Source: Ilex aquifolium
Lineage: Eukaryota > Streptophyta > Magnoliopsida > Aquifoliales > Aquifoliaceae
Reading direction: 5' to 3'
Length of the DNA: 64,000 nt
Assembly (NCBI GenBank): GCA_951799425.1
Contig: OX637409.1
Coordinates: forward strand, 13,426,960-13,490,959
Below the pieces are notes generated by a model. That model was not told the origin of the DNA, did not search any database, and saw only the letters and a program-made list of their open reading frames with translations. Made by a program: the position numbers and the translations under genes. Positions 3,411 through 60,494 of the stretch are shown here, piece by piece; the stretch's first letter is position 1; every line of letters begins with the position of its first letter.

Positions 3411-5335
3411 TGATCAGTACTTAAAATTAGCATTGTACCATGCCTTTTTTAGACTAATTGTACTTTGATGGAGTTTAAGTGATAACATTTCAGGTCCTAA
3501 AATGAACAAGGACTCAAAAACAACTAGTATCACACTTGAGTGTAACACCAACACATTAGGGAACAAAATTGGAGAAGCTTGGAGCAAAGCAAGAACGTTC
3601 GAACACCAACTCACGTTCGAACATCCACTTGAACTATGAGAAGACTAGACTGCTGAGACATGGCGTGTTGAAGGCAAGAAAGAAAGACCCTGAGGTACTT
3701 GAGTACCACGTTCGAATGCCAACTCACGTTCGAACGCCAACTCACGTTCGAACGTCCACTTGAACTATGAGAAGACCAGACTGTTGAGACATGGCATGTT
3801 GCAGCCAAGAAATGGACTTCATAGAAGACTACATGCCACTTGAGTGAGAGCCTTAAACCCCATCTGGCGTTCGAACGCCCATAAAGCAAAGACAGAAGAA
3901 ACGTTCGAACGTTAGACAACGTTCGAACGACGATAAGGCAAAAACAGATGCAACGTTCGAACGCTAGATACCGTTTAAACATTCTCCACAGACTGGCTGC
4001 AGAGTAGTTGGCTTTTCACTTGGACTTGGGCAGCATACTCTATTCCTTCACCCCCTCTTGTCTCCTCCTCCTTGCCTATAAATACACCCATTGTTGGCGA
4101 GCTTGGGAGACTAGGTAGAGAGTTTGATGGAGGCTTAGACTCCCACTCATATTATTGTACAGTAATCTTATATTTCCTTATATGAAGAAGTAATTGTTCT
4201 AAGAGATTGGTTTGGCATTAGTCCAACATCTCTTAGCTTGTTGTAAAATTAGTTTTATGCTTATGCTTTCAATTACATGCATAGAAGGAGATAGATTACC
4301 TTTGGTTGTGGATCACCCTCCAAAAGTGACTACCTTTCTTCTGCTTTTAATTTGTGTTTCATTCACTTCCATTGCTTGAGCTTCTTTCTTCCCTTAGAGG
4401 AGTGAAACTCTTCCACTTTTCTAGAGCTTCGCCAAAGTCGTGAAGGGTGGAACGTGATTCACTCATTCTTTATTGAAGATCGGCTCCTTGTTTATTGTGT
4501 TTTGTTTTGTGACCCCTCTACTTGGAGGAATGAATATCACTCACTTTTTCTAGCTTTACCAAAGCCATGAAGAGTGAGTAGTTTCTCATTCACTCTTTAG
4601 TAAGAGGAGAAGGCCATGTATAAATTATCCAGAAATTATATTTGTGCAATTTCGATTATGCTTAATGCTTTATATTCCCCATGCTTATTGAATGATTGAT
4701 TGCATCTAGAAAAGCTAAGGTACTTTGTATAACCAGGAGTTCTTTCTATGACATAGATAACTCTTGCATAGAAAGACTCGTTGGTTCAAGGCAAGTACCC
4801 CGGCTAGATCTTTATGACTACCCTTCAATCTTCACCATTATTATGCTTCAATTAAAGAATGGAAATGGAACATCAATGTCATGATTTGATGTCTTGTAGA
4901 AACACTCGGCACAGACAATTCTTGTAAATTTCTAGAAAGACATCGGAATCATGTTCTTAATTCTCATAATCCACCTTTATCTTCCGATTAACCTGCTGTT
5001 GACACGGGGGTTAATTGAGTTATCAAGCACAAGTATAACAAACCGGATAATTAACTACATGTCCAGATCCTTGAACTAAAGAGTGACTCTTTTACATTAG
5101 AGCTTATTTCATATTTTGTTTAGAAAATTCTCTTGGAAAGAATCTTATATTATGTCCAGGAAACCTCACACCTCACACAACTTCAAATCTCAAGGGTTAC
5201 AATCAATAGGTCTCCACAACTGCTTATCTCAAAACACCAACAAGAGTTCCCTGTGGATTTGACTCCGGACTCAAACCGGATTATTACTACAGCTTGACCG
5301 CCTGTACTTGGGTGTACACATTTCGGATCAAGTCA
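3411..5335 (+). mobile_element. 5' LTR of left family B element
   Basis: Starts TGATCAGTACTTAAAATT and ends CAAGTCA before the primer site. It holds a palindromic GTTCGAAC array (3594-3963), a TATA box at about 4076 (CTATAAATACACC) and an R/U5 part that matches other B LTR copies at 55351-57032, 57078-58065 and (inverted) 19260-20181. Length is about 1.93 kb. It lies inside the G LTR; no second flank is seen because the element is cut at about 19260. Confidence 0.88.
3594..3963 (+). promoter_or_regulatory. ACGTTCGAACGT palindrome array, left B LTR
   Basis: About ten copies of the palindromic core GTTCGAAC, mostly inside ACGTTCGAACG, spaced irregularly and ending about 110 bases before the TATA box near 4076. 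The flanks CCAACTCACGTT and CAAAGACAGAAGAAACG recur with it. The same array occurs upstream of the B third ORF (49367-49671 and 51153-51445). Confidence 0.75.
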
Positions 5336-6159: not shown

Positions 6160-7816
6160 TGATTAGCACAAAACTTTGTATATTTTGATGTGCTAATCAT
6201 ATCTTTTTAATTGTTTTCGGAGATTTAAATGATGGGAGTTAGGTTAATTGAACTCTTAACGATGATATTTGGTGTTTGCAGTTGAATGGTGCTAAATGAG
6301 GCCTCTTAAGGCCTTCCCCAATCATGTGAGGCAAATGAAGATGAGAAGACAGCTTGTGGATAGCTCAGTGGAGGAGGAAACCAGCAAATCAGGAAACCAG
6401 CCAAACCGTACCGGTACGCTAAGGCTACTGGAGTAAACCGTACCGGTACGTGTACCGGTACGCTCAAGCCACTGGAGATCGCCGTATCGGTACGCCTTGC
6501 CTGATCAGTCCAACTGCTCTGTAACTCATGATTGCTGATTTGAGGGACCCACCAACAGACATGCCCTGCTTCCCTGACGCACCTACAATGCTAGTGACCC
6601 CTTTCTACACCTATGATTGCAAGTTGGAGTCTTGTTGATAAATGAGGAGAGAGAAGAGAAGAAGAGCTGGGTGTGCAGACAAACTCTACAACCCTTCTTC
6701 CAGCCCAGTACTACTGCACCCCTATTGATGGAGGTCATTTTCTGGAGACTAGGGGATCTCTCCATGCACGTTTTTGGAAGCCAAGTCCAGGGTAGAGAGG
6801 CATTCAGCTGGGAGCAGAAAATAGATAGATATAGAGAGAGAAAAGTCTAGAGAAGATGATGAATAGTATTCTAGAGAGATAAATTTCAGATTTCTGCATT
6901 TTCTTCACTACATTGTCTTGTAATCTGCTGTAAGAACATTTCAAGCTTCATTTGAATACCATTAATTCCGTTTTTCTTCAAGTTCATTGTTAGTTTAATG
7001 CTCTCTTGACTTCTCACCATTAATGCAACAAGGTTCATTATTTTTCTTAGCTGTAACTGGGTCTCTCTGATCTCTGTCTACTTGCATTTTAGCTATTCAA
7101 GAACTTACTCTCTTGCATTGCATTTTTCTTACATAGTCAACTGCATTACAAGCATGAGTAGCTAAATCCTTTAGTTGGTAAAACCAAGGGGAATCTCCTC
7201 TTGGGTATGCCATGTCAATTCATTCTCCTCCCTTTCCAGAGATCAATGGTTCGGTTTGACTGGGTTGTGGGTGGATAAATTGGTGAGTCTTTGATATTCT
7301 GTAGGCCTAGTCACGGTTTATGCTTAGATACTCACCCTTAGTATCCTCAACTTCCCATGAATCAATCGTTCATTCATGCTCTACCGTAGGAGGGATTCGA
7401 GTTGAGATGGCATTCCTATTGGAGTGACCTCTTGGCTTTACCAACATTTGTTTTTCATTTGATTTTCATCAAGATACACTACCAAACAACTCTCAACAAC
7501 CAAAAGATTTTACATTTTCTCTTACCCGAAATCACCTTCCCCTTGGTTTACTTCCTTCCCCGTGGAAACGACCTTGGAATACCACCAAGTAAAACACGAC
7601 CCGCGAAAGTCTCCTTGTGCTTGGGGAGCACTTTTGTACACACACACATAGTTTTGTGCATCCACATTTCATATTTCCACCATCCCATTTTCCTTTCCTC
7701 TTGCCCTTTCTTTTCACATTATCCCAAGGGAGAGTGACACTCCCCTTATCCATACATTACACATTTTGAGGGATAGATTTTAGAGGTTAGGAAATAACAA
7801 GGTTTTTGATCAAGCA
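6160..7816 (+). repeat. 5' LTR of element A
   Basis: Starts TGATTAGCAC and ends GATCAAGCA. The first 40 bases hold a perfect 10-base inverted repeat (6160-6169 with 6190-6199). The U3 palindrome array is at 6407-6494. No convincing TATA box is visible; an AGATATAG string occurs near 6827. Confidence 0.93.
6407..6494 (+). promoter_or_regulatory. CGTACCGGTACG palindrome array, A 5' LTR
   Basis: Four copies at 6407-6418, 6439-6450, 6451-6462 (first base changed) and 6483-6494 (CGTATCGGTACG), separated by a related spacer with CTACTGGAG or CCACTGGAG. Each unit is two GTAC cores back to back. The array recurs upstream of ORF3 (15493-15604) and in the 3' LTR (17769-17836). Confidence 0.75.
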
Positions 7817-13640: not shown

Positions 13641-13680
13641 GCATTGAGGACAATGCATGATTCTAGTTGGGGGGTGAGGT
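13641..13680 (+). other. Internal purine tract with stem-AGGA-stem hairpin, element A
   Basis: About 200 bases after the pol stop: GCATTG-AGGA-CAATGC, a perfect six-base stem with an AGGA loop, followed by TTCTAGTTGGGGGGTGAGG, which looks like the 3' purine tract. It is conserved in A' (26102-26140), D (39681-39718) and, weaker, B (50567-50600). A hairpin of the same design precedes the true 3' purine tract of the chromovirus E (59944-59961). Confidence 0.65.
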
Positions 13681-15492: not shown

Positions 15493-15604
15493 CGTACCGG
15501 TACGTATACCGGTACGCTAAGGCTACTGGAGCAAACCGTACCGGTACGCGTACCGGTACGCTTTTGCCACTGGAGTTCGACGTACCGGTACGCGTACCGG
15601 TACG
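15493..15604 (+). promoter_or_regulatory. CGTACCGGTACG array upstream of ORF3, element A
   Basis: Six units at 15493, 15505 (TATACCGGTACG), 15537, 15549, 15581 and 15593, five of them perfect 12-base palindromes. The spacer text CTAAGGCTACTGGAG is the same as in the LTR array. The array ends about 270 bases before the ORF3 ATG. This is the strongest copy of the motif in the window and suggests an internal promoter for ORF3. Confidence 0.75.
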
Positions 15605-15872
15605 TTTTTCCTGGGAAGCCAAGATTTAGGACTTTTAATCGATTTGTTTTAAAACATCTTCATTTCCCTCCTAAAATACAGCCCCCCTTCACTTCTCTCT
15701 CTCACCCGAAATCAACCCTTAAGCTTCCAATCACACCAAACCCCCTTTAATCTCTCAAATCCTCTTCCTTGTTCTTTGATTGAGTGGAAACCAACCTTGT
15801 GAAACCCTAATTGCCGAAATTCCCCAAACCCTTTTCCCTCTCCAATTCTCAAAACTTTTTCAAATCTCTCAA

Positions 15873-17213
15873 ATGGCTCGCTCTCTAGGGTGTTTCCAAG
15901 TGACCATGGACTCAATTGAGAGTCTCCTCTTCGCCCTTTGTACGTTTCTGATGATGGGGGCACTGTTGCTATGCATGGCCCGCACCAAGACGACGGGACA
16001 CAAATCCCGTCCACCCGAAGGCTCAAGTGGTCGTAAAAGAAGTAGAGAGGGGTCGAGTGGGGATAGGAATGAGCAGAGAAAGAAAGCGAAAAATGAGGCT
16101 AGGGATCGATTGATCCAGGCGAAAGAGGTGACTTGTGAAAGGTACCTGGACTCCATCTCCCTCACCCCTAGGAACGAGGCCATAAAAATCATTGAAGCAC
16201 ATGGTATGAAGTTTTGGTTTGAGCCGGTTGAAGGGTACAATCTATCGATATGTAGGGAATTTTACCAGATGCTCCGGGTGTCTGAGGTGGATGGTGTGGA
16301 AATCCTAAAAACCAACGTCTGTGGCAAGGCATTTGTGGTAACTCCGAATATCATTGCCACACTCTTGGGAGGGTACGAGAGGCCACCGGAGTCTACGCTT
16401 GTCTATCCCCACAACATCACCAGACCCAAGAAAATTTCTGAGTTGGTTGAGTTGATGTATGAAGACCTTGGAGATTTCAAAGGGACAGTGCAAAGTGGGA
16501 GACTCAAGCCCACTTATGGATTGCTTAACAAGCTCCTCCACTACAATCTTATGCCCAGGGGTGCTGAAAAGAAGCCAAACATAGAGAAGCTGACCCTCTT
16601 GGATGCGGTCGTTTCTGGGAAGGCCGTTGATTTTGCCCTTCTTATTTGGCAGGAAATGAAAAATTTTGCTGAATTGCAGAAGCCCATGATTAAACTGCCA
16701 TTCGGGGACTTGGTAACCCGGATGTGCATGCAATTCAAGGTTAAGGGCTATGTATTCGACAAGATTACCCCACCTGAGTTTGGAGCCATTAGCAGGACCA
16801 GTAAAAAGAAAAGGAAAGCAATGAGTCGAGGAAAGCGAGCCAAGAACATGGCTGCTGGTTCTGAGGCCCCCGGGGCATCTTCATCTGCTGGGCCATCTGT
16901 TGCAGCACCTCCCCATTCAATCCCTTAGCGCCTCGATGCACTAGAGACTACAGTGCATGGGATCGAGGCTACTGTGCTAGGAATGGAGGCTATGATGCAA
17001 GAGCTGTTCCTACATACCTTCCCTGGGAGACCCATCCTAGAAGTCCCCACTAGACCAGCACCGGCCACTGCTCCTTCTGCTTGTGCCCCCTCTGCCCCTA
17101 CAACAGTCGAGGAGGAGGAGGATGATGATGGAGAAACTGAAGAATCAGGGGAGGGTGAGGAGTATAATGAAGGTGAAGAGTCCGAGGAGGATGATGGCTC
17201 TGAGGATGATTAG
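15873..17213 (+). pseudogene. Third ORF (ORF3, env-position) of element A
   Basis: First ATG at 15873. In order: a hydrophobic segment at about residues 15-35 (SIESLLFALCTFLMMGALLL), a basic low-complexity part (GRKRSREGSS...EQRKKAK), a conserved core shared with A' and D (KFWFEPVEGYNL, VTPNIIATLLGGYERPP, YGLLNKLLHYNL, PFGDLVTRMCMQFKVKGY), a second basic patch (SKKKRKAMSRGKRAK) and a very acidic C-terminus. It is in the env position but shows no furin site, fusion peptide or glycoprotein cysteine pattern. One in-frame TAG at 16926-16928 replaces a glutamine codon of A' and separates the acidic tail. Function unknown; basic patches plus an acidic tail fit a nuclear or nucleic-acid-associated protein, while the leader argues for a membrane role. 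Confidence 0.85.
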
Positions 17214-17508
17214 GATGATATGTAGTAGTTTATAGTTTGTATTTTTTTCTTTTAGGGTTGAATTGGATGGAATGAAGTCGTAGGCTATTTTGTCTCTTTT
17301 GTTGTCATACGTTATGTACTCCAACTTCAGAACACATTAATGAAAATACCACAATTTCGGATTTAATCTTGTCTATTATTTTGAAATTGCATTATGATTT
17401 ATGCTTTTTAATTGATTGAATGAATGGTTAGCTAGATGGATTAGGTGTGTATTATACTTATTCTTTTGTGATTGAAAATAATCTTTTGCTAAGGGACTAG
17501 CAAAACCT
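17214..17508 (+). other. ORF3 3' untranslated stretch, element A
   Basis: About 300 bases between the ORF3 stop and the purine tract, AT-rich with no gene. It ends in AAGGGACTAGCAAAACC, the same lead-in as before the G purine tract. Confidence 0.6.
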
Positions 17509-17521: not shown

Positions 17522-19173
17522 TAATTAGCACAAAACTTTGTATATTTTGATGTGCTAATCATCTTTTTTTAATTGTTTTCAGAGATTCAAATGATGGGAG
17601 TTAGGTTAATTGAACTCTTAACGATGATATTTGGTGTTTGCAGTTGAATGGTGCTGAATGAGACCTCTTAAGGTCTTCCTCAATCATGTGTGGCAAATGA
17701 AGATGAGAAGACAGCTTGTGGATAGCTCAGTGGAGGAGGAAACCAGAAAATCAGGAAACCAGCCAAATTGTACCGGTACACGTACCGGTACGCGTACCGG
17801 TACACTAAGGCTACTGGAGTAAAGCGTACTGGTACGCCTTGCCTGATCAGTCCAACTGCTCTACAACTCATGATTGCTGATTTGAGGGACCCACCAACAG
17901 ACTTCCCCTACTTCCCTGACGCACCAACAATGCTAGTGACCCCTTTCTACACCTATGATTGCAAGTTGGATTCTTGTTGATAAATGAGGAGAGAGAAGAG
18001 AAGAAGAGCTGGGTGTGCAGACAAACTCTGCAACCCTTCTTCCAGCCCAGTACTACTGCATCCCTACTGATGGAGGTCATTTTCTAGAGACTAGGGGATC
18101 TCTCCATGCACGTTTTTGGAAGCCAAGTCCAGGGTAGAGAGGCATTCCGCTGGGAGCATAAAATAGATAGTTATAGAGAGAGAAAAGTCTGGAGAAGATG
18201 ATGAATAGTATTCTAGAGAGATAAATTTCAGATTTCTGCATTTTCTTCACTACATTGTCTTGTAATCTGCTGTAAGAACATTTCAAGCTTCATTTGAATA
18301 CCATTAATGTTGTTTTTCTTCAAGTTCATTGTTAGTTTAATGCTCTCTTGACTTCTCACCATTAATGCAACAAGGTTCATTATTTTTCTTAGCTGTAAAT
18401 GGGTTTTAAATGCATCCTTCTCTGATCTCTGTCTACTTGCATTTTAGCTATTCAAGAACTTACTCTCTTGCATTGCATTTTTCTTACATAGTCAACTGCA
18501 TTACAAACATGAGTAGCTAAATCCTTTAGTTGGTAAAACCAAGGGGAATATCCTCTTGGGTATGCCATGTCAACTCATTCTCCTCCCTTTCCAGAGATCA
18601 ATGGTTCGGTTTGACTGGGTTGTGGGTGGATAAATTGGTGAGTCTTTGATATTCCGTAGGCCTAGTCATGGTTTATGCTTAGATACTCACCCTTAGTATC
18701 CTCAACTTCCCATGAATCAATCGTTCATTCATGCTCTACCGTAGGAGGGATTCGAGTTGAGATGGCATTCCTATTGGAGTGACCTCTTGGCTTTACCAAC
18801 ATTTGTTTTTCATTTGATTTTCATCAACATACACTACCAAACAACTCTCAACAACCAAAAGATTTTACATTTTCTTTTACCTGAAATCACCTTCCCCTTG
18901 GTTTACTTCCTTCCCCGTGGAAACGACCTTGGAATACCACCAAGTAAAACATGACCCGCGAAAGTCTCCTTGCACTTGGGGAGCACTTTTGTACACACAC
19001 AGACATAGTTTTGTGGATCCACATTTCATATTTTCACCATCCCATTTTCCTTTCCTCTTGCCCTTTCTTTTCACATTATCCCAAGGGAGAGTGACACTCC
19101 CCTTATCCATACATTACACATTTTGAGGGATAGATTTTAGAGGTTAGGAAATAACAAGGTTTTTGATCAAGCA
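17522..19173 (+). repeat. 3' LTR of element A
   Basis: Matches 6160-7816. Its first dinucleotide is TA instead of TG, a terminal G-to-A change. It ends GATCAAGCA followed by the target duplication ATGGC. It includes a 12-base insertion near 18405 relative to the 5' LTR and an altered palindrome array. Confidence 0.93.
17769..17836 (+). promoter_or_regulatory. CGTACCGGTACG array, A 3' LTR
   Basis: Units at 17769 (TGTACCGGTACA), 17781 (perfect), 17793 and 17825 (CGTACTGGTACG). Order and number differ from the 5' LTR array, so the array changes faster than its surroundings. Confidence 0.7.
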
Positions 19174-19259: not shown

Positions 19260-20181
19260 ATCTTCACGGCTTTACGAAGCTCTAGAAAAGTGGAAGGGTT
19301 TCACTACTCTAAGGGAAGAAGCTCAAGCTATGGAAGTGAATGCATCAAATATTGAAAGTAGAAGAAAGGTAGTCACTTTTGGAGGGTTTCCTCCTCAACC
19401 AAAAGTAATCTATCTCCCTCTATGCATGTAATTGAAATCCTAAATCTAAGACTAACAAAGCAAGAAAATGTTGGTCTAGTGGAAAAACTACCTCCCAGCT
19501 CCCTTGAAGCTTCCACAAGGGGAGTATTTATAGGCAAGGAGGAAGGGGGGGCAAGGTAGTGTAGATGAATAGTACAAGGCTTTGAAAGTCCAAGTGAAAG
19601 TCCCAATGTCCGGAGAGAAGATCAACCACTCTGCAGCCTGTCTTGGGACAACATTCGAACGTTGTCTGGCGTTCGAACGTTGCTTCTGTCTTTGCTAGAT
19701 GGGCGTTCGAATGTTGCTTTTGTCTTTGCTAGATGGGCATTTGAACGCCAGATGGGGTCTGATCTTCCCACTCAAGTGGCACATGGTCTTCTGGAGATCT
19801 ACTTCTAAACGCTTTGAATCACTGCCTTTGCACTCATTAGCCTGGTTCTTAATAGTGGAGGAGAACGTTCGAACGTGAGTGGGCGTTCGAATGTGGTACT
19901 CAAGTACTTCAATGTATTTCTTCTCATCTGCAACATGCCATGTCTCAGCAGTATGGTCTTCAAATAATTCAAGGGAACGTTCGAATGCGGATTGGCGTTC
20001 GAACGTTCTTGCCTTGGTCCAAGCTTTATCCAATTTTGCTCCAGAATATGCTGATGTTGCGTGAAAGTTTGCCTTTGGTCCCTTGTACAATTTATGTCCT
20101 GAAATGTCATCATTTAAACTCCATCAAAGTATAATTAATCTTAAAAAGGCATAGTGATATGCTAATTTTAACTACTAATCA
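19260..20181 (-). mobile_element. Inverted family B LTR fragment (3' LTR of minus-strand B element)
   Basis: Reverse complement of the first ~1 kb of the B LTR: it starts (minus) TGATTAGTAGTTAAAATT at 20181, has the GTTCGAAC array (19651-20007) and TATA box (about 19526), and breaks off at about 19260 within the part matching about 4430. The missing end is joined to the plus-strand B gag. Confidence 0.85.
19651..20007 (-). promoter_or_regulatory. ACGTTCGAACGT palindrome array, inverted B LTR
   Basis: About eight sites, for example ACATTCGAACGTTGTCTGG and AACGTTCGAACGTGAGTGG, in the same LTR position as in the other B copies. Several have single-base changes in the CG of the core. Confidence 0.7.
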
Positions 20182-20588: not shown

Positions 20589-22261
20589 TGCTTGATCAAA
20601 AACGTTGTTTTTTCCTACCCTCTAAAAACCATCCCTTAAAGTATGTAGTGTATGGATAAAGGGGAGTGTCACTCTCCCTTAGGATAGTGTCAAAAGAAAA
20701 AGAAGGAGAAAAGAAAATGAGATGGTGGAAATGTGAAATGTGAATGCACAAAAATTGTGTGTGTGTGTACAAAAGTGCTCCCCAAGCGCAAGGAGACTTT
20801 CGCGGGTCGTGTTTTACTAGGTGGTATTCCACTGTCGTTTCCACGGGGAAGGAAGTAAACCAAAGGGGAAGGTGATTTTGAGTAAAAGAAAGTGTAAAAT
20901 CTTTGTGGTTGAAAGTTGTTTGGTGAGTGTGTGTTGATGAAAATGAAGTGAGAAACAAATGTTGGCAAACCCAAGAGGTTACTCCAATAGGAATGCCATC
21001 TCAACTCGAATCCCTCCTCAAATACAGCATGAATGAACGATTGATTAGTGGGAAGTTGGGGGTAAGAAGGGTGAGTATGTAAGCATAAACCGTGACTAGG
21101 CCTACGAAATATCAAAGACTCACCAATTTATCCACCCTCAACCCAGTCAAACCGAACCATTGATCTCTGAAAAAGGGAGGAGAATGAGTTGAAATGGCAT
21201 ACCCAAGTGGAGGTTCCCCTTGGTTTTGCCAACTAAAATATTTTAGCTACTCATGCTTGGGATGAAATGAATAATGTAGTGAGGATGCATTCCAAAGGAA
21301 TAAAGCTCTTGAGTAACTAAATGCACATAAACAAAAATTATAAATGAAAGCAATAAATACCCATTTTAAAAGTAAGAAAAATAAACCTTTGATGCATTAA
21401 TGGTGAAAGCTTAAAGAGAGAAATAAACTTGCAATCAACTTCTAGGAACTAGCATTAATAACATTAAAATGAAGCTTGAAAGGTTCTTACAGCAGATTAC
21501 AAGACAATGTCATGAAGAAAATGTAAAAATCTCAAGTTTATCTCTCTAGAACACTATTCATCATCTTCTCTAGACTCTTTCTCTCTTTATATCTATCTAT
21601 CTCTGTCCAATGTGCTGAATGCCAATGCTCGAGATCCCTTTCCCTCCAAAAACGTGCTTGGAGAGATGCCCTAGACTCAGAAGTGACCTCCATCTGTAGG
21701 GGTGGAGGAGGAATGGGCTGGACAGAGGGGTTGCAAAGCTTGTCTGCACACCCAGCTCCTCTTCTCTTCTCTCTCCTCATTGATGACCTAGACTCCAAAC
21801 TTGTAATCAAAGGTGTGAAAGGGGTGAATAGTGTTGTGGGCGTGTCAGTGGAGCATGGGAGGTCTGTTGGTGGGACCCTCAAAGCAGCAGACATGAGTTG
21901 CAGAGCATTTGGGCAGATCAGGCAAAGCGTACCGGTACGCGTACTGGTATGTCGAACTCCAGTGGCTTCAGCGTACCGGTACGATGAACTCCAGTAGCCT
22001 TAGCGTACCGGTACGGTTTGGCTGACTTCTTGATTTTTTGATTTCCTCCTCTCCTGAGCTATCCCCAAGCTACCTTTTCATCCTCATTTGTCTCAAATGG
22101 TTTGGGAAGGCCTTAAGAAGCCTCATTTAGCACCTTTTAACTGCAAACACAAAATATCATCGTTAAGAACTCAATTAACCTAACTCCCATCATTTAATCT
22201 CCAAAAGCAATTAAAACAAAATGATTAGAACATAAAAATATACAAAGTTTTGTGCTAATCA
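20589..22261 (-). repeat. 3' LTR of element A'
   Basis: Reads TGATTAGCAC on the minus strand from 22261 and ends GATCAAGCA at 20589. Full length, about 1.67 kb, with palindromes at 21928-22015. Confidence 0.93.
21928..22015 (-). promoter_or_regulatory. CGTACCGGTACG array, A' 3' LTR
   Basis: Units at 21928, 21940 (CGTACTGGTATG), 21972 and 22004, with the spacer CTCCAGTGGCTT or CTCCAGTAGCCT between them, as in A. Confidence 0.72.
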
Positions 22262-22565: not shown

Positions 22566-23915
22566 CTACACATCCTCCTCATCATCACCAGAACCATCAC
22601 CCTCCTAAGACTCATCACCTTTATCATACTCCTCACCTTCCCCAGACTCCTTAGTGTCGTCATCATCATACTCCTCCTCCTCCTCAACTGTTGTGGGGGC
22701 AGAGGGGGCAGAAGCAGAGGGAGCAGTGGCTGGTGGAGTGGGGACTTCTGGGATGGGCCTCCCAGGGAAAGTATGCACAAACAGCTCCTGCATCATTGCC
22801 TCCATACTCAGCAAAATAGCCTCAATCCCATGCACCGTAGCCTCTAATGCATCGAGGTGCTGAGGGACCGAACGTTCAGGTGTAGCAGCGGATGGCCCAG
22901 CGGATGAAGATGCCCCGGGGGCCTCAGAACCAGCAGCCATGGTCTTTGCCCATTTCCCTCGACTCATTGCTTTTCTTTTCTTCTTACTGGTTCTGCCGAT
23001 GGCTCCAAACTCTGGGGGGGTAATCTTGTCGAACACATAGCCCTTAACTTTGAATTGCATGCACATCCGGGTTACCAAGTCCCCGAATGGCAGTTTGATC
23101 ATAGGCTTCTGCGTCTCAGCAAAATTTTTCATTTCTTGCCAAATGAGAAGAGCGAAGTCAATTGCCTTCCCGGACACGACTGCATCCAAAAGGGTCAGCT
23201 TCTCTAAATTTGGTTTCTTTTCCGCACCCCTTAGTGAAAGATTGCAATGGAGGAGCTTATTCAACAGTCCATAAGTGGGCTTCAACCTCCCACTTTGCAC
23301 TGTTCCCTTGAATTCTCTAGGCTCCTGATACATCAATTCTGCCAATTTAGATATCTTCTTGGATTTGGTGACGTTATGAGGATAGACAGGTGTAGACGCA
23401 GGTGGCCTCTCGTACCCACCCAGGAGTGTGGCAATGACATCAGGGGTCACCACAAACATTTTGCCCCGAACATTGGTTTTCAAGATTTCCATTTCGTCCA
23501 CCTCTACCACCCGAAGCATTCGGTAAAATTCCCTACACATTGACAAGTTATACCCCTCAACAGGCTCAAACCAAAACTTCATACCATGTGCTTCGATAAT
23601 TTTCACAGCCTCATTCCTTGGGGTAAGGGAAATGGAGTCCAGGTACCGTTCACAAGTGACCCCCTTCTCCCGAATCAGTCGATCCCTAGCCTCATTCTTG
23701 GCTTTCTTTCTCTGCTCACTCCTATCGCCACTCGACCCCTCCCCATTTCTCTTGCGACCACTAGATCCTTCGGGTGGAGGAGATTCAGGTCCCATTGTTT
23801 TGGTGTGGGCCATGCACAGCAACAGTGCCCCCATCGTCAGAAAAGCACAAAGGGTCAAGAAGAGTCCCTCAATCAGGTCCATGGTCTCTTGGAGAATCCC
23901 TATAGAACGAACCAT
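22566..23915 (-). pseudogene. Third ORF (ORF3) of element A'
   Basis: ATG at 23915. It is open for 436 codons to TAG at 22605-22607, which replaces a glutamate codon of A; the old end is TAG at 22566-22568, so only about 13 residues of the acidic tail are lost. Structure as in A: hydrophobic leader (LIEGLFLTLCAFLTMGALLL), basic part, core (KFWFEPVEGYNL, VTPDVIATLLGGYERPP, YGLLNKLLHCNL, PFGDLVTRMCMQFKVKGY), basic patch KKKRKAMSRGKWAK, and acidic end. It is the longest uninterrupted ORF3 in the window and its near-intactness contrasts with the ruined gag-pol beside it. Function unknown. Confidence 0.88.
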
Positions 23916-24183
23916 CTGAGAATTTTAGGAGAATTTGAGAAATGAAGAGAGAAGAGGGTTTGGGGAATTTTCGGCACTTAGGGTTTCAAAAGGTTGATTT
24001 CCACTGAATCACAGCACAAGGGAGAGGATTTGGGAGATTTAAGGAAGATTGGTGTGATTTGGAAGCCTAAGGGTTGATTTGGGTGAGAGGGGAGTGAAAG
24101 GGGGGTTGTATATTAGGAGGGAAATGAAAGGTGTTCCGAAAGAAGTCGATTAAAAGCCCTAACCTTTGGCATCCCAGGCAAAG

Positions 24184-24270
24184 CGTACCGGTACGCGTAC
24201 TGGTACGTTGAACTCCAGTGGCTTCAGCGTACCGGTATGCTGACTCCAGTAGCCTTAGCGTACCGGTACG
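24184..24270 (-). promoter_or_regulatory. CGTACCGGTACG array upstream of ORF3, A'
   Basis: Units at 24184, 24196 (CGTACTGGTACG), 24228 (CGTACCGGTATG) and 24259, with the same spacers as the LTR array, about 270 bases before the ORF3 ATG. A CTAATATACAA string (minus, near 24107-24117) could be a weak TATA box. Confidence 0.72.
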
Positions 24271-32109: not shown

Positions 32110-33501
32110 TGCTTGATCAAAAACGTTGTTGTTTCCTACCCTCTAAAAACCATCCCTTAAAGTATGTAGTGTATGGATAAAGGGTAGTGTCACTCTCCCT
32201 TAGGATAGTGTCAAAAGAAAGGGCAAGGAGAAAAGAAAATGAGATGGTGGAATGTGAAATGTGAATGCACAAAAATTGTGTGTGTGTGTACAAAAGTACT
32301 CCACAAGCGCAAGGAGACTTTCACGGGTCGTGTTTTACTTGGTGGTATTCCAAGTTCGTTTCCACGGGGAAGGAAGTAAACCAAAGGGGAAGGTGATTTT
32401 GAGTAAAAGAAAGTGTAAAATCTTTGTGGTTGAAAGTTGTTTGGTGAGTGTGTGTTGATGAAAATGAAGTGAGAAACAAATGTTAGCAAACCCAAGAGGT
32501 TACTCCAATAGGAATGCCATCTCAAGATTTTAGCTACTCATGCCTGGGATGAAATGAATAATGTAGTGAGGATGCATTCCAAAGGAATAAAGCTCTTGAG
32601 TAACTAAATGCACATAAAAAGAAATTATAAATGAAAGCAATAAATACCCATTTTAAAAGTAAGAAAAAGAAACCTTTGATGCATTAATGGTGAAAGCTTA
32701 AAGAGAGAAATAAACTTGCAATCAACTTCTAGGAACTAGCATTAATAACATTAAAATGAAGCTTGAAAGGTTCTTACAGCAAATTACAAGACAATGTTAA
32801 GAAGAAAATGTAAAAATCTCAAGTTTATCTCTCTAGAACACTATTTATCATCTTCTCCAGACTCTCTCTCTTTATATCTATCTATCTCTGTCCAATGTGC
32901 TGAATGCCAATGCTCGAGATCCCTTTCCCTCCAAAAACGTACTTGGAGAGGTGCCCTAGACTCAGAAGTGACCTCCATCTGTAGGGGTGCAGGAGGAATG
33001 GGCTGGACAGAGGGGTTGCAGAGCTTGTCTGCACACCCAGCTCCTCTTCTCTTCTCTCTCCTCATTGATCACCTAGACTCCAAACTTGCAATCAAAGGTG
33101 TGAAAGGATGAATAGTGTTGTGGGCGTGTCAAGGGAGCATGAGAGGTCTGTTGGTGGGACCCTCAATGCAGCAGACATGAGTTGTAGAGCATTTGGGCAG
33201 ATCAGGCAAAGCGTACCGGTACGTCGAACTCCAGTGGCTTCAGCATACCGGTACGGTTTGGCTGACTTCTTGATTTTCTGATTTTCTCCTCTCCTGAGCT
33301 ATCCCCAAGCTACATTTTCATCCTCATTTGTCTCAAATGGTTTGGGAAGGCCTTAAGAAGCCTCATTTAGCACCTTTTAACTGCAAACACCAAATATCAT
33401 CGTTAAGAACTCAATTAACCTAACTCCCATCATTTAATCTCCAAAAGCAATTAAAATAAAATGATTAGCGCATAAAAATATACAAAGTTTTGTGCTAATC
33501 A
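32110..33501 (-). repeat. 5' LTR of element A' (internally deleted)
   Basis: Same ends as the other A' LTR but only 1392 bases. About 240 bases are missing at 32525 (the part matching 21004-21240) and a shorter piece within the palindrome array, where only two units are left (33212, 33244). Confidence 0.92.
33212..33255 (-). promoter_or_regulatory. CGTACCGGTACG array, A' 5' LTR (reduced)
   Basis: Two units, CGTACCGGTACG at 33212-33223 and CATACCGGTACG at 33244-33255. Two units seen in the other LTR are absent. Confidence 0.68.
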
Positions 33502-34459: not shown

Positions 34460-36131
34460 TGATTGAGCAAAAACAATCCTATTCCTAACCCCTTAATTAC
34501 TATCCCCCAAAGTGTATGTGTGATAAATGTTCAAACGGGAAGGGAGGTCAAGCTCCCTTCGGATAGTGTGAAAAGAAAGGGCAATAGGAAAGGGAAAAAA
34601 AAGTTAATGGGAATGTGATATGTGAATGCACAAAAATGCTCCCCAATCGCAAGGAGACTTTCGTGGGTCGTCTTTTACTTGGAAGTATTCCAAGGTCATT
34701 TCCACGGGGAAGGAAGTAAACCAATTTGAAAGTGATTTTGGGAAAAGAATGTGTAACAATTCTTGTGGTTGAAGTGGTTTGGTAAAATATGTTTTGGTGG
34801 AAATGAAATGAAGAAGCAAGTGTTGGCAATCCCAAGAGGTCCCTCCAATGGGTATACTATCTCAACTCAAATCACTCCTCCGATTGAGCATGAATGAACG
34901 GTTGATTCGCGGAAAGCCGAGGATAAGGTAGGTGAGTATCTAAGCATAAACCGTGACTAGGCCTACGGATTATCAAAGACTCACCAAATCATCCACCTTC
35001 AATCCGGTCAAACCGAACCATTGGACTCTAAAGGGAGGGTGTAGAAAGAGTTGAAATGGTATACCCAAAAAGGAGGATTCCCCTTGGTCTTGCCAACAAA
35101 AGGATTTAGCTACCCATACTTGAAATGAATATGACAATGGAAAGATAATGCATTTTAGGGATATAAAGTTTTGAAGTAACTAAGTGCAAGAAATCATGGA
35201 CTAGAAGTGAATGAAGTGAAAATCCATTTTATATCTATGAACAAGAACAACTTGGAAGCATTAATGGTAGAACTTAAATGGAAGCATTAAACTAGCAATG
35301 GACATAAGGAAAAATGGCATTAATGACATTCAATGAAGATCTAAAGGTTTATACCATTGATTACAAGACAATGCAGTAGCAGAAATGCAAAAATCACAAC
35401 TTTCTCTCTCTAAAATTACTATTCACCATCTTCTCCGCCTAGAGCTTCTCTCACTATCTTTTTCTCTATGCTATCCCAGAATGCCCATCATTGGAGAGCT
35501 TTCCCTCCCAAAAATGTGCCTGGTCAGCTCCTGTAGCTCCCTGAAGTGACCCCCATCGGTAGGGTGCAGTCTAGATGACCTGGACAGGGGAGTGCAGAGT
35601 TTGTCTGCACACCCAGCTCCTCCTCTTCTCTCTCTCTAAAATTTAAAGCTGTAGCTCTAGAGTGCAGAGGAAAGTGTGGGCCTGACGAACAGTGTTGTGG
35701 GCGTGTCAGAGGAGTGTGGGGGCATCTATGGTGGGACCCTCGAAGTAGCTGAGCAGATCTGCAGATTCTGGGCTTGTCAGGCAAATCGTACCGGTACTGA
35801 GTACCGGTACTTCAACTCCAGAAGGTTTGGCGTACCGGTATTGAGTACCGGTACCATATAGTACCGGTATTGAGTACCGGTACTGTTCTGCCTCCTTGTC
35901 TGAATCTTCTGATTCCTTTGCTCCTGAGCTGTCCCCAAGTTCTCTTTTCATCTCCTTTCATCCCAAGTGGTATGGGAAGACCTTAACAAACCATATTTAG
36001 CTCCTTTCAACTGCAAACATAAAATATTGACGTTAAGACTTCAATCATCATAACTCATATCATTTAATCTTCAAAAACAAGTGAACTGAGCTGATTAGCA
36101 CCTTAAAATATACAAAGTTTTGTGCTAATCA
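34460..36131 (-). repeat. 3' LTR of element D
   Basis: Minus strand start TGATTAGCAC at 36131, with a perfect 10-base inverted repeat in the first 40 bases; ends GCTCAATCA at 34460. Related to but distinct from the family A LTR. Confidence 0.94.
35787..35884 (-). promoter_or_regulatory. GTACCGGTAC palindrome array, D 3' LTR
   Basis: Six GTACCGGTA(C/T) cores arranged as pairs joined by TGA (GTACCGGTACTGAGTACCGG type), with a CTCCAGAAGG spacer. This is a variant of the A motif: the inner palindrome is kept, the outer CG is often lost. Confidence 0.72.
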
Positions 36132-36410: not shown

Positions 36411-37595
36411 TTACTCTCCATCACTCTCTTCATCATAACCCTCTGATTCTTCCCCTTCTTCAGACTCCTCATCATCTTCCGCTTCCTCATTAACCCTGGA
36501 GGTTGAAGGTGCAGTAGGAACTTCTGGGATGGGTCTCCCAGGGAATGTGTGCATGTACATCTCTTTCATCATCACCATCATTCCCTGAACTGAGGCCTCA
36601 ATCTCATGTACTGTCGTTTCTAGTGCATCAAGTCTCCTAGGGACTGAGCGTGCTGAAACAGGCTTGAATGGCATGGTGGGTGCAGTCGGTACAAAATCCT
36701 CATCAGAATCAAGCTGAGCTCGCTCCCCACGACCCATAGCCTTCCTCTTTTGGCTACTGGCCCTGCCTATAGCCCCACTCTCGGGGGGAGTGAGCTTTTC
36801 TGATGCGTAGCCCTTAACCTTAAAATGGTTACACAGTCGAGTAACCAAGCTCCCATATGGCAGGTTAGTCAATGGCTTCTCTGTGATGGCAAAGTCTTTC
36901 ATAACTTCCCAAATAACAAGGGCAAAATCAATTGTTTTGCCCGACACAACAGCATCCAGGATGGCCAGCTTTTCCATGTTTGGTTTCTTTTCTGCAGCCC
37001 TTGGGAGTAGGTTATAATGAAGCAGTTTGTTGAGAAGCCCATAAACATGCTTCAACCCACCACTATGAACCACTCCCTTGAATTCAGCCGGATCCTCATA
37101 CATCAAATCGACAAACTCCGCCTTAGTCTTAGCTCTACCCATGTTGTATGGATAGACAGGTGGGGAAGATGGAGGTCTCTGATAGTTTCCAAGAAGGGTG
37201 GCTATGACGTTAGGGGTCACTGTAAATACATTTCCCCTAACATTCACTCTCAGAACTTCCCCAACAGCAACCTCAACTAATTTCAATGAACGGTAGAACT
37301 CCCTTACCAATGCCAGGTTGTAACCCTCAACTTCCTTGAACCAGAAATGCATCACATGCCCCTCAATGATTTTCACAACGGGATGAATGGGGGAAAGGGA
37401 CATTTTATCCAAAAAACGTTCACAGGTCACACCCTTACCATCGATCAACTGGCGTCGGGCATCCCTCTTAGCCCTCTTCCTCTGCTCCTCTGGGTCCTCA
37501 CTTGACCCTTCGCCTCATCTCTTCCGGCTAGAGGAGACCCTGGCAGGAGGGGAACTGGGCTCGGGTCCTGGTCCTGGTCTCTTAGTGCGAGCCAT
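36411..37595 (-). pseudogene. Third ORF (ORF3) of element D
   Basis: ATG at 37595 (MARTKRPGPG). Codon 27 is TGA (37515-37517) where A has an arginine-glutamate region, most simply CGA to TGA. After it the frame is open to 36411 (345 codons from the next usable methionine at 37448). There is no hydrophobic leader, unlike A and A'; the start corresponds to the inner MARTK of A. Core blocks: FWFKEVEGYNL, VTPNVIATLLGNYQRPP, YGLLNKLLHYNLLP, LPYGSLVTRLCNHFKVKGY; then basic QKRKAMGRGER, a short helix, and an acidic tail (EEAEDDEESEEGEESEG). Function unknown. Confidence 0.87.
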
Positions 37596-37800: not shown

Positions 37801-37872
37801 CGTATCGGTACTTCGACTCCAGAAAGTTTGGCGTACCGGTACTGAGTACCGGTACCATATCGTACCGGTACT
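37801..37872 (-). promoter_or_regulatory. GTACCGGTAC array upstream of ORF3, D
   Basis: Cores at 37801 (GTATCGGTAC), 37832, 37846 and 37861, with the same TGA joints and CTCCAGAAAG spacer as the D LTR array, about 200 bases before the ORF3 ATG. Confidence 0.72.
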
Positions 37873-45866: not shown

Positions 45867-47538
45867 TGATTGAGCAAAAACAATCCTATTCCTAACCCCT
45901 TAATTACTATCCCCCAAAGTGTATGTGTGATATATGTTCAAACGGGAAGGGAGGTCAAGCTCCCTTCGGATAGTGTGAAAAGAAAGGGCAATAGGAAAGG
46001 GAAAAAAAATTTAATGGGAATGTGATATGTGAATGCACAAAAATGCTCCCCAATCGCAAGGAGACTTTCGTGGGTCATCTTTTACTTGGAAGTATTCCAA
46101 GGTCGTTTCCACGGGGAAGGAAGTAAACCAATTTGAAAGTGATTTTGGGAAAAGAATGTGTAACAATTCTTGTGGTTGAAGTGGTTTGGTAAATATGTTT
46201 TGGTGGAAATGAAATGAAGAAGCAAGTGTTGGCAATCCCAAGAGGTCCCTCCAATGGGTATACTATCTCAACTCAAATCACTCCTCCGATTGAGCATGAA
46301 TGAACGGTTGATTCGCGGAAAGCCGAGGATAAGGTAGGTGAGTATCTAAGCATAAACCGTGACTAGGCCTACGGATTATCAAAGACTCACCAAATCATCC
46401 ACCTTCAATCCGGTCAAACCGAACCATTGGACTCTAAAGGGAGGGAGTAGAAAGAGTTGAAATGGTATACCCAAAAAGGAGGATTCCCCTTGGTCTTGCC
46501 AAAAAAAGGATTTAGCTACCCATACTTGAAATGAATATGACAATGGAAAGATAATGCATTTTAGGGATATAAAGTTTTGAAGTAACTAAGTGCAAGAAAT
46601 CATGGACTAGAAGTGAATGAAGTGAAAATCCATTTTATATCTATGAACAAGAACAACTTGGAAGCATTAATGGTAGAACTTAAATGGAAGCATTAAACTA
46701 GCAATGGACATAAGGAAAAATGGCATTAATGACATTCAATGAAGATCTAAAGGTTTATACCATTGATTACAAGACAATGCAGTAGCAGAAATGCAAAAAT
46801 CACAACTTTCTCTCTCTAAAATTACTATTCATCATCTTCTCCGCCCAGAGCTTCTCTCACTATCTTTTTCTCTATGCTATCCCAGAATGCCCATCATTGG
46901 AGAGCTTTCCCTCCCAAAAACGTGCCTGGTCAGCTCCTGTAGCTCCCTGAAGTGACCCCCATCAGTAGGGTGCAGTCTATATGACCTGGACAGGGGAGTG
47001 CAGAGTTTGTCTGCACACCCAGCTCCTCCTCTTCTCTCTCTCTAAAATTTAAAGTTATAGCTCTAGAGTGCAGAGGAAAGTGTGGGCCTGACGAACAGTG
47101 TTATGGGCGTGTCAGAGGAGTGTGGGGGCATCTATGGTGGGACCCTCGAAGTAGCTGAGCAGATCTGCAGATTCTGGGCTTGTCAGGCAAATCGTACCGG
47201 TACTGAGTACCGGTACTTCGACTCCAGAAGGTTTGGCGTACCGGTATTGAGTACCGGTACCATATAGTACCGGTACTGAGGACCAGTACTGTTCTGCCTC
47301 CTTGTCTGAATCTTCTGATTCCTTTGCTCCTGAGCTGTCCCCAAGTTCTCTTTTCATCTCCTTTCATCCCCAAGTGGTATGGGAAGGCCTTAACAAACCA
47401 TATTTAGCTCCTTTCAACTGCAAACATAAAATATTGACGTTAAGACTTCAATCATCATAACTCATATCATTTAATCTTCAAAAACAAGTGAACTGAGCTG
47501 ATTAGCACCTTAAAATATACAAAGTTTTGTGCTAATCA
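45867..47538 (-). repeat. 5' LTR of element D
   Basis: Equal in length to 34460-36131 and nearly identical. Its palindrome array (47193-47290) has GAGGACCAGTACTG where the other LTR has GAGTACCGGTACTG. Flanked by GTACT. Confidence 0.95.
47193..47290 (-). promoter_or_regulatory. GTACCGGTAC palindrome array, D 5' LTR
   Basis: Same arrangement as 35787-35884 with a few substitutions, two of them in the last palindrome. Confidence 0.7.
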
Positions 47539-48042: not shown

Positions 48043-49134
48043 TCACTCTCCTCCAGCTCCACCTCTCATAAGGCGAAGAATCTCATCCTGCTTAGCTTCG
48101 ATGCTAAGCATGATATCTCTAAGTGGGTGCCGGGTGCTGGTGCTAGTGTTGGGTCCTGCCTCCTCCTCTGGCTGCACCTGGGCTCTCTCAACATCTATCT
48201 CTCTCTCCTCCTCCTCATCGAGCTCATCCTGCACCTCGTCGACTCCTCGAGTAGGGGGCTTCTCTTGTCTAGCCGTGGGGGCACCACTATGTCCTTGGCT
48301 CCTTTAGAAGGAAGCCTTCTTCAGTGGCCCCATTGGCTTTTGGATAGTCATCTCAGGCCTCACCCTGATCTTGTGGTTCTTGCACATTTTCGTTACCAAA
48401 GTGCCAAAAGGAAGTGAGCTTCTTTTTACGTCACATCCCTTCTTCATCTCAGTCAAAATTAGGGAGGGGAGATCTATGCTTTGGCCTTTCCCAAGTGGGT
48501 AGAGCAATCGGGCCATATCGGGGAGGATTTCGTTCTTTCGTCCAATTGGGGCAAAGTTCGAAACCGTAATCAAATTTAACATTTTGCACTTATTGGTTAG
48601 CTTGCCTTGTAGAAGAAATCTCCGCCCCACCCAAGAAAAACCAGCCATCCCCGTTAGCTCTGTCCCAACTACATTCATTGCTACGTTCTTCCTCGGGGGA
48701 TAGGCTGGCCTTGGCACCCGAGGCATCTCCTGTCTCAACTCCCGGATATAGTCCTCATGCACATCAATATGGGCTCCCCTCACATACGTTCTAATTGCCC
48801 CATTGATGATCTTGGCGTTGGAGAAAAACTCCTGCACCAAGTCAACCACGGCTTCTCCGCCGTTTCTTATGTATAATATCCACCCCCTTCTCTCAAAATT
48901 CTCCAAAATACCCAACTCAGCAAAATCAACCAATACCACATCACGTTCACATACCACACAATGGTTTTGGTAAAATTTTTCATACCTGTTTGCCTTGAGC
49001 ACAGTGGGGAAGTGGGTTCGATCATATCCCCGCGTAATGGGCCTCCCCTCTCTCTCATCGATGACTTCTTCCACCATATTAGGCTCTTAACTCAGTGGGT
49101 TGCGCCTAGCAGGGAGCTTGACTCTTGGAGGCAT
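48043..49134 (-). pseudogene. Third ORF (ORF3) of minus-strand B element
   Basis: ATG at 49134 (MPPRVKLPARRNP) and stop at 48043, about 363 codons in one frame with two in-frame TAA (49087-49089 and 48304-48306). The main open part gives 257 codons from 49077. Core blocks align with G ORF3: LVQEFFSNAKI, GTELTGMAGFSWVGRRFLL, KCKMLNLITVSNFAPIG, QSIDLPSLILTEM, LPFGTLVTKMCKNHKI. It shares the LPFG..VTKMC motif with the A/D ORF3, suggesting distant homology of all third ORFs here. The tail is acidic (DELDEEEEREIDVE) and ends in a short coiled-coil-like helix (IEAKQDEILRLM). Function unknown; no envelope features. Confidence 0.8.
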
Positions 49135-49344: not shown

Positions 49345-49680
49345 AGCTTTTATAGCCTGGTAATTGACGTTCGAACGTTGATGATGTTCGAACGTATGTA
49401 GAAGGATTTCAAAAATATCGTTCAAACGTGAATGATGTTTGAACGTGATGAGCTCCGAGTACTTTTGACTTCTGTCAGAGACCAAAGTACTGTAAGTAGG
49501 TGACGTTCGAACGTGCTATTGGCGTTCGAACGTGTTACTCTCGTTCGAACGTTCTATTGGCGTTCGAACGTGCTAAGCTCCCAGTACTTTTTGTTTCTAT
49601 CAGAAGCTTCATCAAAGACTGAGTACTGCAAGCAGCTGACGTTCGAACATCGCTTGGCATTCGAACGTCAAATCAAAAAT
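49345..49680 (-). promoter_or_regulatory. ORF3 upstream promoter region with TATA box and GTTCGAAC array, minus-strand B
   Basis: A TATA box (minus CTATAAAAGC, about 49348-49355) lies about 210 bases before the ORF3 ATG. Directly upstream are about ten palindromic sites between 49367 and 49671 (for example ACGTTCGAACGT at 49367-49378 and a run of four near 49502-49570). The same motif is the LTR array of family B. CAGTACTTT repeats are interspersed. Confidence 0.72.
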
Positions 49681-50935: not shown

Positions 50936-51522
50936 AATTTGTTGTAAAAAGTGTAAAAATCTTTTTGTATAAATTCTTTTGATTAAAATGAAAATACGGG
51001 CCGAGTAAGGAATACCCCAAAATACCAACCTGAAGCGTGGGTAGGGGTTCATCTTGAGACGCCTTAGTTTTTTTTTGAATTAAATTTGTGTGTTTTGCCT
51101 TCTTTGATTGTATATAGTGTAGTGGAGAAAAAACTTTAATTTTTGGTTCAACGTTCGAACGCCAGGTAACGTTCGAACGTTGGCTGCTTACAGTACTCAG
51201 CCTCTGATGAAGCTTCTACTGGAACTTAAAAGTACTGGGAGCTCAGTCCGTTCGAACACCAATAGACCGTTCGAACGAGATTAACGTTCGAACGCCAATA
51301 GAACGTTCGAACGAAGAGAACTTACAGTACTTTGGCCTCTGACAGAAACTCAAAAGTACTGGGAGCTCACCACATTCGAACGCCATACCACGTTCGAACG
51401 GTCTGTTTAAAATCCTTCTACCCACGTTTGAACGTCACCAACGTTCGAACGTTACGACTCAAGCTATAAAAGCCTGGCTCGTCTTCTTCATTTCAAAACC
51501 CTCCAACTCAAAAACCGAAAAA
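50936..51522 (+). promoter_or_regulatory. ORF3 upstream promoter region, plus-strand B
   Basis: Mirror of 49345-49870. The GTTCGAAC array runs 51153-51445 with about nine sites; the last is about 20 bases before a TATA box (CTATAAAAGC near 51464). The ORF3 ATG is at 51523, about 55 bases after the TATA box. Confidence 0.72.
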
Positions 51523-57077: not shown

Positions 57078-58065
57078 GGACATATTATTATGACATTTTA
57101 AGACTAATTGTACTTTAATGGAGTTTAAGTGATGTCATTTCAGGCCCTAAACAGAACAAGGACCCAAGAACAACAAGTACCACACTTTGATGCAGCACCA
57201 GCACATTAGAGCCCAAAATTAGAGAAGCTTGGAGCACAGCCAGAATGTTCGAACGCCAACTCACGTTCGAACGTCCACCTTACACTATAGCAGACTCAAC
57301 TGCTGAAGAGAAGGCGTGTTGCAGTTAGGAAAGAAGACTGGAGCTCTGAAGCACTTGAGTGTCACGTTCGAACGCCAACTCACGTTCGAACGTGCACTTG
57401 AGTTTATGGAAGACCAGACTACTGCAAAGAGTTGGAACTGAACTTCACAGAAGACCAACAGACCACTCGAGTGAAAGGGTCAAAGCAAATATGGCGTTCG
57501 AACGCCCTTAGTGCAAAAATAGAAGAAACGTTCAAACGGCAGTCAACGTTCGAACGCCCGTAGTGCAAAAACAGAAAGAACGTTTGAACGCCAACTCACG
57601 TTCGAACGTTATCCACAGACTGGCAGCAGAGTTGTTGACTGTTCACTTGGACTTGGGTGGCAAACACTATTCCTTCACCCCCCCCTTGTCTCCTCCTCTT
57701 GCCTATAAATACTCCCCTTGTTGGAGAGCTATGGGAGCCAAGTAGGAAGTAGGAAAGTTGATTGAGGCTTAGACTCCCACTCTCATTGTAGATTTAGCTC
57801 ATTTTCCTTGTATGAAGTCTTCATTTTAGAGATTAGTTTGACTTTAGTCCAACATCTCTTGCTTGTTATAACAGTAGTTTATGCTTATGCTTATGTTTAT
57901 ACTTTCATTTTTCATGCATAGAAGAGAGATAGCTCACCTTTTGGTTGAGGAAGCAACCCTCCAATTCTTGGTTGAGGAAGCAACCCTCCAAATGTGACTA
58001 GCTTTCTTCTATTTTTATTGTTCATACATTTCACTTCCATTGCTTGCGCTTCTTTCTTTCTTAGA
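57078..58065 (+). mobile_element. Second tandem family B LTR copy (both ends cut)
   Basis: Begins about 20 bases into the LTR (CATATTATTATGACATTTT) and follows 55370 onwards almost base for base to about 58065, including the array 57245-57610 and the TATA box near 57705. The high similarity to the neighbour suggests a recent local duplication. Confidence 0.85.
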
Positions 58066-60482: not shown

Positions 60483-60494
60483 CGTACCGGTACG
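60483..60494 (+). promoter_or_regulatory. CGTACCGGTACG palindrome in chromovirus LTR
   Basis: Perfect 12-base palindrome in the context AAACCGTACCGGTACGCCC, the same context as in the A arrays (AAACCGTACCGG), about 65 bases before the TATA box. Single copy. Confidence 0.6.

Follow-up and report, generated by a model that had tools for sequence, protein, structure and literature searches.

Retrotransposons in a 64,000-nt stretch of Ilex aquifolium DNA (GCA_951799425.1, contig OX637409.1, positions 13,426,960-13,490,959, forward strand; hereafter the window) carry arrays of short palindromes at two places, in their LTRs and again before a third open reading frame, ORF3. We consider it probable, with a good measure of reserve, that these arrays are upstream activating sites of the LTR promoter and of a separate ORF3 promoter, and that they are most likely read by one or more host factors. 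This proposal draws on arrays paired in all six units that could be read, the use of two palindromes, a 12-bp dyad, TATA boxes (in family E and at 7 of 24 arrays in C1 regions) and purifying selection on ORF3; promoter activity, co-regulation and factor binding are what we infer from these features.

In the proposed mechanism, the arrays would act as upstream activating sequences for RNA polymerase II promoters, of which each element would have two: one in the LTR, giving the full-length RNA, and an internal one directly before ORF3. Because the same family-specific palindrome stands at both, a single dimeric factor could activate ORF3 along with gag-pol. The reader would be a host transcription factor, or a related set of them, whose site was gained by several LTR families. 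A host factor is favored because elements without a detected ORF3 carry the same module; its host identity is the weakest step of the explanation.

Palindrome arrays lie in LTRs and before ORF3

The 12-mer CGTACCGGTACG occurs 43 times in the window when up to two mismatches are allowed, compared to 0.29 expected from 100 dinucleotide shuffles, and its exact form has 14,692 sites in the 800-Mb genome compared to 14 for the pattern read backwards. Fifteen copies in the window are exact, none of them in element D, whose units are AGTACCGGTACT-like; the core common to the units of elements A, A' and D is TACCGGTA. The earlier description of a 12-mer array in all three elements is thus right about the array and wrong, for D, about the exact 12-mer. 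All nine arrays that the first-pass annotation had listed for the LTRs and pre-ORF3 regions of A, A' and D are where it had placed them (Table 1), the last unit of the one at 47193-47290 being decayed.

An unbiased scan of the window for three or more identical 10-bp palindromes inside 250 bp returned 12 clusters, eight in LTRs, four before ORF3 and none at other places. Seven were clusters of GTACCGGTAC and five, in family E, of CGTTCGAACG. The controls gave neither mirror-repeat clusters in the window nor any cluster in 30 block shuffles. A search with the two-unit motif had no matches in viral contigs and matched five plasmid records at E about 3, which is chance level.

The pieces of D include gag, protease, RT, RNaseH and integrase in the order of Ty3/gypsy elements; pol order was examined in D only, and A and A' are collinear with D in self-BLAST. 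The Athila-type layout, in which a sense ORF separates a Ty3/gypsy pol from the 3' LTR, is present in D, with A and A' collinear. We keep the name Athila from the first-pass annotation as a putative assignment that rests on ORF3 and this layout.

With the ORF3 of D as query, at least 111 scored matches were found among 5,916 first-look candidates; by row count, 59 of the listed matches had 91-100% identity and 52 had 72-75%. The first entry in the 72-75% class, here called C14, has the TACCGGTA array in both its pre-ORF3 stretch (L033) and its 3' LTR stretch (L034). No further ORF3 matches were found in L026-L032, adjoining the window. Taken together, the same palindrome core is found before ORF3 and in the LTR of all six units in which the 5' end of ORF3 could be read (A, A', D, E1, E2 and C14), five of them in the window and one beyond it; the fragments L025, 585-1049 and about 62072-62367, whose 5' ends are missing, were left out of this count. 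The co-occurrence of LTR and pre-ORF3 arrays that had been claimed is thus borne out, with no readable unit carrying only one of the two.

Table 1 Arrays, ORF3 frames and promoter-like features (window coordinates unless a region is named)
Element	Feature	Position	Strand	Basis
A	LTR pair	6157-7816/17517-19173		self-BLAST
A	5' LTR array, 4 units, 250-337 bp into LTR	6407..6494	+	
A	pre-ORF3 array, units as three pairs	15493..15604	+	
A	ORF3 leader: AT-rich TATA-like stretches, then C/T-rich leader with AAACCCTAA; without TATAWAW	15605..15872	+	
A	ORF3, PF20167 (E 9e-22, first 351 aa), one in-frame stop, basic patch, acidic tail	15873..17215	+	
A	3' LTR array	17769..17836	+	motif search, self-BLAST
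A'	LTR pair	32110-33501/20589-22261		self-BLAST
A'	3' LTR array	21928..22015	-	
A'	ORF3 (PF20167)	22605..23924	-	
A'	pre-ORF3 array, two perfect 10-bp units	24184..24270	-	
A'	5' LTR array, shortened	33212..33255	-	
D	LTR pair	45867-47538/34460-36131		self-BLAST
D	3' LTR array, spacing 13/16/31	35787..35884	-	
D	ORF3 open frame (PF20167)	36411..37514	-	
D	pre-ORF3 array, spacing 13/16/31 like D LTR	37801..37872	-	
D	5' LTR array; last unit, beyond 47277, decayed	47193..47290	-	
E	LTR array; TATAAATA about 113 bp downstream	3596..3963	+	
E1	3' LTR array of CGTTCGAACG, decayed	19866..20005	-	
E1	ORF3-like open frame, PF20167 E 5e-20; early stop in frame from leader ATG	48304..49086	-	
E1	TATA box CTATAAAAGC between array and ORF3	49346..49355	-	counted by hand
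E1	pre-ORF3 array of CGTTCGAACG	49368..49649	-	
E2	pre-ORF3 array of CGTTCGAACG	51152..51451	+	
E2	TATA box CTATAAAAGC; ORF3 start about 51523	51464..51473	+	counted by hand
X	array in X LTR, itself inserted in E2	54124..54161	-	
E2	3' LTR array of CGTTCGAACG; TATAAATA about 98 bp downstream	55536..55898	+	
E	second E LTR copy, array present	57246..57608	+	
Chromovirus-like	single palindrome after pol, 63 bp before TATAAATA	60483..60494	+	counted by hand
L007, L030, L031	CTTCCGGAAG arrays replacing GTACCGGTAC	L007:7991-8358, L030:9210-9463, L031:6814-7067		

The ORF3 protein and array carriers without a detected ORF3

The domain PF20167, known from the third ORF of sunflower Athila, is present in the ORF3 of A, A' and D and in the ORF3-like frame of E1, and in A, A' and D it is the only domain above cut-off. 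The ORF3 sequences of A and A' differ by 11, 9 and 30% at codon positions 1, 2 and 3, a sign of purifying selection. Likeness among A, A', D and C14 is 59-83% where measured, and that of E to A, A' and D is 23-31%. The basic patch and acidic tail attributed to ORF3 in the first-pass annotation are both present. A search of solved structures with ORF3 gave no match at E 1, and the AlphaFold2 model had a mean pLDDT of 41, an unusable fold. In A (15873-15980) and at the equivalent place in A', an extra N-terminal hydrophobic stretch precedes the MARTK-like start of the relative P0003, and the open frame of D starts later. P0009, a related ORF3 piece, is labeled as coming from Ilex paraguariensis.

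Other carriers of the array were sampled in 20 C1 regions of 10 kb each, which were picked by the exact motif and do not span whole elements. Athila-type LTR probes matched one of these regions (L016) and none of the other 19, and the ORF3 queries from A', D and E1 had no match in any of the 20. The pol found near arrays in the window, L008 and L014 has an integrase with SH3_Tf2-1. At 58073-59932 of the window SH3_Tf2-1 is strong and Chromo scores 16.4 bits against a cut-off of 25.1; a Chromo search in L008 at 0.001 gave no match. We label these elements chromovirus-like because of the integrase SH3_Tf2-1 and the sub-threshold chromodomain in the window. Their arrays are placed in LTRs by pol order in L008 and by the alignment of L013 to the gag-bearing L007. 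A copia-type gag frame is also present in L009.

These carriers resemble the Athila-type elements in more than the palindrome. Among spacers of carriers without an ORF3 match, 19 of 28 match an Athila spacer at 13 or more of 20 positions (background 0.6% for shuffled spacers and 0.4% for random 20-mers), and 105 of 110 unit intervals, pooled over Athila and other carriers, are 12, 13, 16, 31 or 32 bp; these counts, like the symmetry counts below, are inflated by common ancestry and motif-based fetching, related arrays not being independent. Neighboring elements have other palindromes, namely CTACCGGTAG (L022, L028 and L029), CTTCCGGAAG (L007, L030 and L031) and CGTCCGGACG (L019). As judged from these comparisons, the palindrome module is not Athila-specific. 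The CTTCCGGAAG array of L007 occupies the same place as the array in the aligned LTRs, and an array of TTCTACCGGTAGAA-like palindromes with longer spacing is found at L029:7756-7947.

These data bear on a VANC-like alternative, in which the ORF3 protein of each family would bind its own palindrome, in the LTR and before ORF3, and counter silencing or activate, while other carriers borrow this activity. We regard it as unlikely, with some room left for it since other elements could indeed borrow the target site of ORF3. The palindrome type tracks the ORF3 family, A, A', D and C14 having TACCGGTA and E having GTTCGAAC, and the basic patch and acidic tail would suit such a role. A sunflower Athila PF20167 protein is nuclear by prediction. 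According to the available text of PMC5735166, VANC proteins target short, family-specific motifs within noncoding tandem repeats, and VANC6 acts also on the unrelated AT9TSD1. Against this alternative, chromovirus-like regions carry the array with no ORF3 match in the fetched DNA, further chromovirus-like regions have their own palindromes (CTACCGGTAG and CTTCCGGAAG), searches of the ORF3 of A, A' and D for the VANC domains DUF1985 and DUF287 gave no match, and no DNA-binding fold was modeled.

A broader version is, to our minds, slightly more doubtful: every LTR family would combine a diversifying palindrome with a cognate dimeric reader, that of the Athila-type elements being the ORF3 protein as a positive feedback activator or anti-silencer, expressed from a promoter in which its own target site lies, and the carriers without ORF3 would parasitise ORF3. 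The first-pass annotation had proposed that ORF3 has its own promoter with LTR-like cis-elements and that the ORF3 protein might be their regulator. The first part is supported by the six paired arrays and the TATA boxes at both places in E, which suggest such a promoter. The second is not supported, as the same palindrome, spacing and spacer motif recur in C1 array regions of which 19 of 20 are without an Athila LTR match and 20 of 20 without an ORF3 match.

LTR and pre-ORF3 arrays compared within families

Without masking, the LTR block aligned to the pre-ORF3 block over 87 bp at 91% in A, 125 bp at 91% in A' and 72 bp at 92% in D (E <=4e-21). With the palindromes masked, the matches were 20 bp in A (E 7e-4), 80 columns in A' (E 1e-5) and, weakly, 19 bp in D (E 0.013). 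Unit spacing goes with the family at both places, being 12 and 31-32 in A and A' and 13/16/31 in D, and an altered core, TACCAGTA, is common to the pre-ORF3 array and the 3' LTR of A'. Pairwise array identity is 0.96-0.98 within A' against at most 0.95 with other families, and 0.92 within D against at most 0.91. By contrast, the LTR and pre-ORF3 arrays of A are 0.84-0.87 identical, less than the pre-ORF3 arrays of A and A' (0.93), and with masking D LTR against D pre-ORF3 (0.85-0.88) is not clearly above D LTR against A pre-ORF3 (0.86). By these measures, spacer matching inside a family is clear in A', modest in D and absent in A.

When one LTR per element was scored, the best partner of the LTR array was the element's own pre-ORF3 array in four of four cases (A, A', D and C14). 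The reverse held in three of four, the C14 pre-ORF3 array scoring higher with the D LTR. In E the masked LTR and pre-ORF3 arrays had no BLAST match at E 0.01, indicating that the palindrome itself is the main thing common to the two places.

Such similarity could also be a by-product: an exchange of sequence between the 3' LTR and the internal site close to it, through gene conversion or template switching, would have left a functionless array before ORF3. This seems to us decidedly improbable. The similar blocks of A, A' and D do take in spacers and short flanks, flanks are common to the LTR and pre-ORF3 arrays of C14, and around the array identity between A and D drops to about 0.6, from about 0.85-0.9, in a mosaic-like manner. 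However, the masked E arrays are without a match at E 0.01 (a limit that masked D, at 0.013, would also miss), the similar block ends near the array edges, and in E a TATA box and a C/T-rich leader follow the array. Separately, the noncoding DNA that separates pol from the array (13600-15200 in A, with equivalents in A' and D) has 0.77-0.95 identity per 200-bp step, about equal to or above the adjoining end of pol. The drop in identity between A and D falls between 15200 and 15600, after this stretch.

Promoter-like signals and dyad symmetry

Promoter-like signals are present in E, in which a TATA box follows the array at both places, CTATAAAAGC before ORF3 and TATAAATA in the LTR. In both E1 and E2, CTATAAAAGC starts 12 bp past the pre-ORF3 array. 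TATAWAW was found neither within 450 bp downstream of the LTR or pre-ORF3 arrays of A, A' and D nor, by eye, in the 400-bp pieces of C14; the pre-ORF3 arrays of A and D are followed only by AT-rich stretches such as TTTTAAAA or TTTTAATTTAAA. Among the 24 arrays in C1 regions, seven have TATAWAW 52-81 bp away (in L005, L009, L010, L012, L013 and L018 and one in L022) and 17 have none within 100 bp. The spacer motif is readable in six of the seven and has TCCAG towards the TATA box, compared to CTGGA in element sense in Athila, so its orientation may be irrelevant. An antisense promoter starting from the array was considered and set aside, because in A, A' and D the first 300 bp on the antisense side of the arrays contain no TATAWAW. 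Instances farther out on that side lie at 313 bp (D 5' LTR) and 428 bp (A pre-ORF3 array).

We analyzed symmetry around 143 TACCGGTA sites from the window and L005-L029. Subject to the inflation noted above, the first and second flanking pairs were complementary at 119 of 143 sites (shuffles 91.3, maximum 104) and 97 of 143 (73.5, maximum 90), and the third and fourth at 51 (50.7) and 31 (40.3) of the 143. Because the excess is confined to pairs 1 and 2, the site is a dyad of 12 bp, with outer bases that tend to vary in concert. This covariation is in keeping with a reader that binds duplex DNA as a dimer. Of 22 single substitutions in cores close to arrays, 17 are C-to-T or G-to-A, a bias expected where CpG is methylated.

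For the identity of a host reader, one candidate is an SBP/SPL factor recognizing GTAC, which is present twice in CGTACCGGTACG. SBP domains bind a palindromic GTAC core, as described in the accessible part of PMC8563897. GTAC is missing from other arrays, those of CTACCGGTAG, CTTCCGGAAG or CGTTCGAACG, and for this reason we disfavor SPL/SBP as the sole reader and find this candidate very improbable. Least credible of all is that the palindromes work as RNA or single-stranded hairpins, whether as a small-RNA trigger or as an export or packaging signal: palindromic LTR regions of maize Sireviruses are reportedly linked to hairpins and small RNAs, and the LTR and pre-ORF3 sites are both located in the 3' portion of the genomic RNA, but the recurrent 12/13/16/32 spacing and the place before TATA boxes better suit duplex DNA.

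Relation to known systems

The closest layout is that of the Sirevirus RMs. In the available text of Bousios 2010 (PMC2829016), these family-specific palindromes lie in the LTR upstream of TATA and again upstream of ENV, four ENV-less elements are without the internal copies, and an internal ENV promoter is proposed. As there, a palindromic motif is repeated here in the LTR and before the env-like gene or ORF3. Sireviruses, however, are Ty1/copia elements, while A and D belong to Ty3/gypsy and have an ORF3 with PF20167 (pol order taken from D, A being collinear). According to the same text most RMs have the form CGG...CCG, whereas the palindromes here are centered on CCGG or TCGA (GTACCGGTAC, CTACCGGTAG, CTTCCGGAAG, CGTCCGGACG and CGTTCGAACG). 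One array type is, moreover, shared with chromovirus-like elements here, and in E the internal array is followed by a TATA box. Because A and D are Ty3/gypsy, we regard the present arrays as a putative parallel system to the Sirevirus RMs and not as a member of it.

VANDALs are DNA transposons. They resemble the present elements in having short family-specific noncoding repeats in an element that encodes an accessory protein (PMC5735166); the VANC motifs reported in the available part of that paper are not palindromes, and no VANC domain was found in the ORF3 of A, A' and D. ONSEN likewise has clustered host-factor sites in its LTRs, of a kind gained in several families and in ONSEN by duplication. 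The available text of PMC5059998 describes its sites for LTRs alone, with no second copy before an accessory gene, and its factor is HSFA2. Gene23 of maize Grande is an accessory gene with its own promoter between pol and the 3' LTR. It is, however, an antisense gene, and a palindrome array is not mentioned in the passages available from PMC7264820 and PMC11728184. Such arrays in Athila or chromoviruses were not described among the literature matches listed, as far as the excerpts go.

Proposals for how plant env-like genes are expressed differ between elements and include splicing, suppression of a stop codon and an internal promoter (PMC2829016, available text). The arrays point to a precise internal promoter for the env-like gene. 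With the Sireviruses, two retrotransposon superfamilies would have one layout, which suggests that the third gene needs co-regulation with the LTR. One site type across LTR families, with its exact copies in the genome numbered above, would spread the binding sites of one factor widely.

Family E and its nested insertions

The analysis of E covered its arrays, ORF3 and LTRs, and the continuity of E1 and E2 across insertions is taken from collinear BLAST blocks. On this basis the E1 segments 19866-20005 and 48304-49649 probably belong to one element split by the insertions of D and A'. As E1 and E2 are related copies, we count them as one family and one case. The ORF3 of E2 has its 5' start and is missing most of its body. 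Between 19254 and 58075 two copies of E lie head-to-head, with A', D and the X LTR nested inside, and every insertion point lies between the ORF3 and the 3' LTR of E. Two further fragments (585-1049 and about 62072-62367) resemble the E ORF3-like protein and are missing their 5' ends; the segments 534-771 and 62130-62367 are 87% alike.
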